DNA of 64,000 nucleotides. Source: Treponema sp. Its GTDB lineage: Bacteria > Spirochaetota > Spirochaetia > Treponematales > Breznakiellaceae. How positions within the stretch are numbered: the first letter of the stretch is position 1; every line of letters starts with the position of its first letter. The notes under the pieces are model-generated. The model did no database searches, was not told the DNA's origin, and saw nothing but the letters and a program-made list of their open reading frames with translations. Below, one piece after another: positions 47,001 through 47,561 of the stretch. The position numbers and the translations under genes are program-made. The stretch is from assembly GCA_009781475.1 (NCBI GenBank), contig WQYB01000006.1, positions 1 through 64,000 on the forward strand, written 5' to 3'.

Positions 47001-47025
47001 TACACTGTGTTGAACCAAGCTGCCG

Positions 47026-47104
47026 CCTGACCACCTGACCACTTAAATTTCTAATATTTTTCATATTTATATTAGATTGATATTTAAGTGGTCAGGTGGT
47101 CAGG
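47026..47104 (+). repeat. Palindromic hairpin in rnpB helix P3
   Basis: A perfect 23-bp inverted repeat (47026-47048 with 47082-47104), whose arm starts with a tandem CCTGACCA CCTGACCA and ends in CTTAAAT, around an AT-rich loop with its own CTAATAT/ATATTAG stem. It shares GACCACTTAA with the P9 and P12 hairpins. Confidence 0.9.
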
Positions 47105-47151
47105 AGGAAAGTCCGGGCTCCGCAGGGTATGATGCCGGGTAACACCCGGGG

Positions 47152-47187
47152 TCAGACCATCTAATCACTTGTGATTAAGTGGTCTGA
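47152..47187 (+). repeat. Related hairpin in rnpB helix P9
   Basis: TCAGACCA (47152-47159) pairs with TGGTCTGA (47180-47187). The right arm contains TTAAGTGGTC (47175-47184), identical to the P3 and P12 hairpins; the left arm has diverged (GACCATCTAA). Confidence 0.75.
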
Positions 47188-47215
47188 AACAGATAGCGCA
47201 ACAGAAAATATACCT

Positions 47216-47276
47216 CCCGACCACTTAAAATGCTAAGATTTATGCTTAATATTTTTTGGTATTTTAAGTGGTCGGG
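47216..47276 (+). repeat. Related hairpin in rnpB helix P12
   Basis: A perfect 16-bp inverted repeat: CCCGACCACTTAAAAT (47216-47231) with its complement (47261-47276), around a 29-base AT-rich loop. It shares GACCACTTAA/TTAAGTGGTC with the P3 hairpin. Confidence 0.85.
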
Positions 47277-47561
47277 AAAGGGTGAAATGGCGGGGTAAGA
47301 GCCCACCTCGGTATTGGCAACAATGCCGGAAAGATTCCAGCGAAGCTGGAAAATGGCAAGCCTCATCAGGAGCAAAGTCAAATAGCGCAAGAATTGGTTC
47401 TTTAAACCTTTGGTTTATTAACCATTCGCCGGCTGCCCGCCGGTTAAGTGCAGGTAGACTGCAAAAAAGTGTTTGAAAAAGCATTTTCAGACAGATGGCA
47501 GCACCCTTTTCACTGCGTGAAAGGGGAACAAAACCCGGCTTATGGTTCAATACATTTTTTT

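Follow-up and report, generated by a model that had tools for sequence, protein, structure and literature searches.

Copies of one palindromic family, probably mobile, in three helices of a Treponema RNase P RNA

How does a single catalytic RNA come to carry the same palindrome in three separate helices? The question is raised by the rnpB gene of a Treponema species, which lies in the 64-kb stretch of DNA analyzed here (the window) and is the sole rnpB match in the 3.29-Mb draft assembly (genome G000). The match covers the full length of the RF00010 model (positions 1–367), at a score of 212 bits where 100 are required for membership (Table 1). With helices placed by the covariance-model alignment, P3, P9, and P12 each contain GACCACTTAA/TTAAGTGGTC, and the claim of a shared palindrome made in a preliminary description of this DNA is thereby borne out. 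Its account of the individual stems holds in nearly every detail. P3 is a perfect 23-bp stem (arms of 23 nt, 47026–47048 with 47082–47104) in which the inner element begins with the same sequence as the outer 8 nt (CCTGACCA/TGGTCAGG)—the duplicated 8-bp unit that had been pointed out—and P9, which had been called a degraded version, has a short loop and is imperfect, with the 3′ arm TTAAGTGGTC intact and two changes in the 5′ arm. P12 is perfect, as described, and one pair longer than the 16 bp given for it: its arms are 17 nt (47215–47231 with 47261–47277), counting a flanking T (47215) and A (47277). P3 and P12 are peripheral, tolerant helices of RNase P; structure prediction for the entire RNA gives their stems as separate hairpins with a probability near 1.

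Table 1. Coordinates of the RNase P RNA gene and of the palindromic features within it (positions in the window)
Feature	Position	Strand	Evidence or description
rnpB, class A RNase P RNA	47016..47548	+	RF00010, 212 bits, E 1.7e-67
P3 hairpin	47026..47104	+	perfect 23-bp stem, 33-nt loop
Palindromic element copy 1, in P3	47034..47096	.	model R1, 66.7 bits, E 2.9e-12 in the window
Palindromic element copy 2, in P9	47152..47187	.	model R1, 25.2 bits, E 0.0055
Palindromic element copy 3, almost all of P12	47216..47276	.	model R1, 69.8 bits, E 5.9e-13
Small extra hairpin TTCCAGC-GAA-GCTGGAA, 3′ of P14	47335..47351	+	insertion relative to Rfam and to sister species G017

Is the palindrome confined to rnpB? 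Within the 64-kb window it is: all five exact matches to GACCACTTAA fall inside the gene, and R1—a covariance model built from 15 copies, mostly rnpB ones—gave no match there beyond the three rnpB copies. In the genome as a whole, TGACCACTTAA occurs 9 times vs. once for a reversed control, mostly as inverted pairs, which lie in rnpB P3, in the gap between rho and rpmE, on contig C34, and inside metG. Because an exact short-loop pattern was too strict for a search across the genus, R1 was used. Of the 40 genomes searched from this termite-gut Treponema genus, 29 gave matches, at roughly 120 sites when each palindrome is counted once. Most lie outside rnpB, the share inside the gene being inflated because R1 was trained mainly on rnpB copies. 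The genomes are mostly draft metagenome-assembled genomes (MAGs), the window's own being a draft too, and their termite-gut origin is our presumption, based on the termite-gut Treponema MAGs that the neighboring sigma factor matches among named genomes, on Rfam Termite-flg RNA matches, which are present in related loci, and on background knowledge of this series of MAGs. Among 149 genomes of the order, R1 matched only one outside the genus (G171, from another genus of the same family), whose rnpB carries the element in P3 and P12.

The family has 18-bp arms starting with CCYGACC around an AT-rich loop of ∼30 nt, with a median length of 66 bp over 75 sites (105 to 108 bp at four of them). Its stem covaries: 11 of the 18 pairs change on both sides, a number reached by none of 500 shuffles. 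Over the first 14 arm pairs at the 75 sites, 978 pairs are Watson–Crick, 29 are G-T, and 36 are mismatched (n = 1,043), and G-U pairs are scarcer in element stems (32/322) than in ordinary P3, P9, and P12 stems (152/913; P = 0.0035). So few G-T and G-U pairs point to recent DNA palindromes, or to correction of one arm by the other, which the element stems fit better than they fit helices selected as RNA. For other coding palindromes, correction by template switching has been suggested (PMC6649704).

How is the element distributed among the rnpB genes of relatives? About half of the species have an rnpB with the element. Among 33 dissected genes, it occupies P12 in 14 species, to which the model added G061 and G062, and it is found in P3 and P9, in full or in a shortened form (the latter assigned by eye), in fewer species. 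Mapped on a MetG tree in which many forks are weak, the occupancy of P3, P9, and P12 requires at least 6, 6, and 8 changes, respectively, and the P12 gains could in part be a single old gain followed by losses. The closest comparison comes from the sister species G017, which joins the window's genome on that tree with a support of 100. Its rnpB has an ordinary P3 of 11 nt and an ordinary P12 of 23 nt, both without the element, whereas its P9, equal in length to the window's P9, carries that palindrome in a diverged form. Because the P9 palindrome is common to the sister, the P9 copy is, judged from this comparison, the oldest of the three, and the P3 and P12 copies would have been either gained after the split or lost by the sister. 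Element insertions help explain the spread of rnpB lengths in the genus (about 390 to 585 nt), a spread of consequence for annotation.

Does the palindrome move? In a comparison of loops from the 75 sites in 29 genomes, where the 99th percentile of identity between shuffled loops was 71%, three sites in G024 had loops 82 to 90% identical and flanks at background level; in G030, the rnpB P12 copy had a counterpart on a different contig, with 84% identity across the 77 nt of the loop and, again, unrelated flanks. In sequence terms, these matches show the family moving as a whole unit, loop included. Two sites can be compared with empty counterparts. In metG of the window's genome, a 33-bp copy sits at the sister's GGC and adds 10 in-frame codons at a variable loop (sister, GAAGAAAAAGGCGATTGG; G000, GAAGAAAAG[TCTGACCACTTAAAATCAGATTTTAAGTGGTCA]GATTGG). 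The rho–rpmE leader has a short hairpin that is empty in most species and holds the element in its loop in G000, G002, and G032, the G032 copy differing from that of the other two. A hairpin GTCCTTAAACC..GGAGTTGGAC preceding rpmE is kept across the genus (rho–rpmE gaps L290 to L319) and is a candidate L31 leader or terminator. Among these mostly draft MAGs, movement of a copy from one strain to another was not seen, and the P3 and P12 loops of G000 resemble each other only in part, which does not establish a very recent shared source for these two. Direct repeats at the boundaries of 52 sites were no longer than expected by chance, and the metG and rho–rpmE empty-site comparisons contained no target-site duplication.

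What enzyme might move it? Mobilization by RAYT or IS200 was considered and dropped, as two carriers, G000 and G030, lack a Y1 transposase (PF01797). Across genomes, the presence of a Y1 transposase does not follow that of the element; a GTAG/CGTC-type tetranucleotide lies within 8 nt of the foot at 5 of 52 sites, and the fragmented G000 assembly contains no TGACCACTTAA arm pair 1 to 2 kb apart. One genome without the palindrome, G028, has eleven weak Y1_Tnp-like matches, possibly a diverged transposase family. A general preference for hairpin tips was likewise rejected, since, when flanks were folded, an enclosing stem reached P < 0.05 at 2 of 29 sites lying neither in rnpB nor in the large palindromes described below. 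So was a confident spread into transfer-messenger RNA (tmRNA): the 29 tmRNA genes gave a single weak R1 match (G034, E 0.013), and 26 of the 29 are 344 to 364 nt long. The tmRNA matches of G000 (L286, contig C51) and G017 (L287) are about 305 nt, compared with 344 to 364 nt in most relatives; they score much lower and are unrecognized by ARAGORN.

We conclude that the three stems are very probably copies of one small mobile palindromic family, dispersed in the genus and in at least one related genus. The preliminary description had favored insertion or copying of a palindromic element within a structural RNA and had proposed searching the genome and its relatives and aligning their rnpB genes. 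Insertion is supported by the dispersed copies these searches returned, by variable occupancy, and by the recurrence of whole elements, and the alignment reveals P3, P9, and P12 stems that differ in occupancy between species rather than common ancestral helices. One refinement concerns the P9 hairpin, which the sister shares and which is therefore older than the P3 and P12 copies. Copying straight from P3 to P12, or back, within the gene is neither shown nor needed. Such copying would be central if the palindrome had spread solely within rnpB, by gene conversion or template switching between the three helices, and the arms are indeed nearly identical within the one gene, the window's P3 and P12 having 83% identity along 30 nt of the 5′ side. 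The best loop match of the G030 P12 copy, however, is on another contig and not in the other rnpB helices, and copies at many unrelated loci contradict local spread as the sole explanation, which we consider exceedingly improbable. That P3, P9, and P12 each underwent an ordinary, lineage-specific expansion, the results being convergent or inherited, is scarcely credible. These helices are variable in all spirochaetes, and some P12 copies are common to another pair of sister species, G003 and G031, but ordinary expansion would have to produce the same arms in three helices, as well as copies outside rnpB, and leave them absent from the window's own sister, G017. The P12 hairpins of ∼70 other spirochaete rnpB genes, outside the clade, are unrelated in sequence, and the scarcity of G-U pairs is unlike that of helices selected as RNA.

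Two further readings accept the dispersed repeats and differ on their origin. One makes the P12 of rnpB the source, with the repeats elsewhere descending from an RNase P RNA hairpin. A short P12 (CCCGACCACAT..ATGTGGTCGGG in G018, or similar) does occur in genomes without detected dispersed copies, and rnpB is over-represented among the detected sites; yet short P12 hairpins could equally be remnants whose loop was deleted, and outside the clade P12 lacks the CCYGACC start beyond the common CCYG. We regard this origin as quite unlikely. The other sees the dispersed palindromes as functional RNA or terminator hairpins under selection, the rnpB copies being a by-product. It would accommodate the copies found in transcribed hairpins such as the rho–rpmE leader, along with a terminator-like hairpin on contig C65 of G000, but sites differ between species, those in metG and rnpB are unconserved in close relatives, one copy (metG) lies in a coding region, and enclosing hairpins in the flanks do not exceed chance (the 2 of 29 sites given above); selection of this kind is highly unlikely to explain the family.

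Why would a mobile palindromic family persist in an essential RNA? We envisage a nonautonomous element copied at the DNA level by a putative enzyme. A palindrome landing in a peripheral rnpB hairpin would only lengthen that hairpin; because the insert folds on itself there, the RNA would still fold with its core untouched, and the element would survive in rnpB. The outer 8-nt unit of P3 suggests an older remnant, at the apex of which a new copy inserted. An 8-nt CCTGACCR unit lies just outside a full copy in P3 of the window's genome, in P12 of G003 and G031, and on contig C23 of G021, and P3 of G171 has a related form of it. The inserts may also behave as intervening sequences, with RNase III cutting the stems and leaving the mature RNA fragmented or trimmed, a possibility that would add to the mobile-element reading and that we consider less likely than not. 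The perfect stems of 17 to 23 bp, predicted with a probability near 1, and the long loops at the hairpin tips resemble substrates of the enzyme, and the intervening sequences of 23S rRNA occupy helices in the same way (PMC4990558); against this, the loops are short and encode no protein. An extended version, in which the family preferentially re-enters its own remnants or hairpin tips, RNase P RNA serves as a standing landing pad, and RNase III then fragments the RNA, appears unlikely; were it true, the cell would run on a fragmented RNase P RNA.

How does the family compare with known systems? Cyanobacterial rnpB carries short tandem repeats, likewise repetitive DNA in an RNase P RNA gene; here, by contrast, dispersed palindromes build a whole helix. 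Like the miniature inverted-repeat elements (MITEs) Correia, RUP, and ERIC, the Treponema palindrome is short, noncoding, and dispersed, has terminal inverted repeats, and was presumably moved in trans, but the inverted repeat makes up about half of the element, target-site duplications do not exceed chance, and no matching insertion sequence was identified. REP/BIME sequences with their RAYT (Y1) enzymes are also short palindromes in many copies; the palindromes described here differ in being larger, more perfect, and inside genes, in carriers without a Y1 transposase (G000 and G030) and with the foot tetranucleotide at few sites. Like the intervening sequences of 23S rRNA, the Treponema inserts are sporadic between species and occupy peripheral helices of a structural RNA that is essential, but they are far smaller, lie in RNase P RNA, and have no open reading frame.

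The nearest parallel is the Rickettsia palindromic elements (RPEs), which the preliminary description had aptly named as a precedent of principle. They are 105 to 146 bp long and lie between genes, in frame in protein genes, and in tmRNA and M1 RNA genes (PMC2229807, citing Ogata 2002). The Treponema palindrome is similarly dispersed between and inside genes, including the RNase P RNA gene, with one case of in-frame insertion into a protein gene (metG of G000). It belongs to another phylum and is set beside RPEs by description, not by sequence; it is shorter (median 66 bp), occurs several times in one RNase P RNA, recurs over two genera, has no confident copy in the 29 tmRNA genes, and has arms that are still nearly perfect and covarying. 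Since an RPE already occurs in M1 RNA according to PMC2229807, the principle is known, RNase P RNA included. What are new are the family, the phylum, the several copies per molecule, and the recurrence across species and two genera; a partial literature search found no earlier report of this Treponema element. That a mobile palindrome should enter an essential catalytic RNA again and again is, as far as searched, undescribed in the phylum, and the rnpB genes offer a natural series—zero, one, two, or three copies, old or new, in different helices—with which to ask how much insertion a ribozyme tolerates and why the surviving inserts are palindromes.

Other palindromes accompany this one in related genomes. 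The small hairpin 3′ of P14 in the window (Table 1) is absent from the sister, and in other species the same site holds a second palindrome family. This family (GGAGTTTTGC..GCAAAACTCC) occurs, with neighboring hairpins, at other rnpB positions: 3′ of P14 in L032, L034, L039, and L047 and in the P19 region in L044, L043, L036, L023, and L031. The pattern GAGTTTTGC..GCAAAACTC is present at 57 sites across the genus, G004 accounting for 28, whereas its reversed control has none. At six loci (L113, L118, L070, L110, L119, and L128), the palindrome forms the tip of larger imperfect palindromes of roughly 150 to 250 bp, themselves repeated. One of these larger palindromes is nearly identical in G013 and G034, which suggests transfer or recent spread. 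Finally, around 1501–1570 of L121 and L081, from two species, the element lies in what seems to be the same conserved structured region (CAGTGRAGTTCGCGCCTTYACTG), possibly an unnamed RNA.
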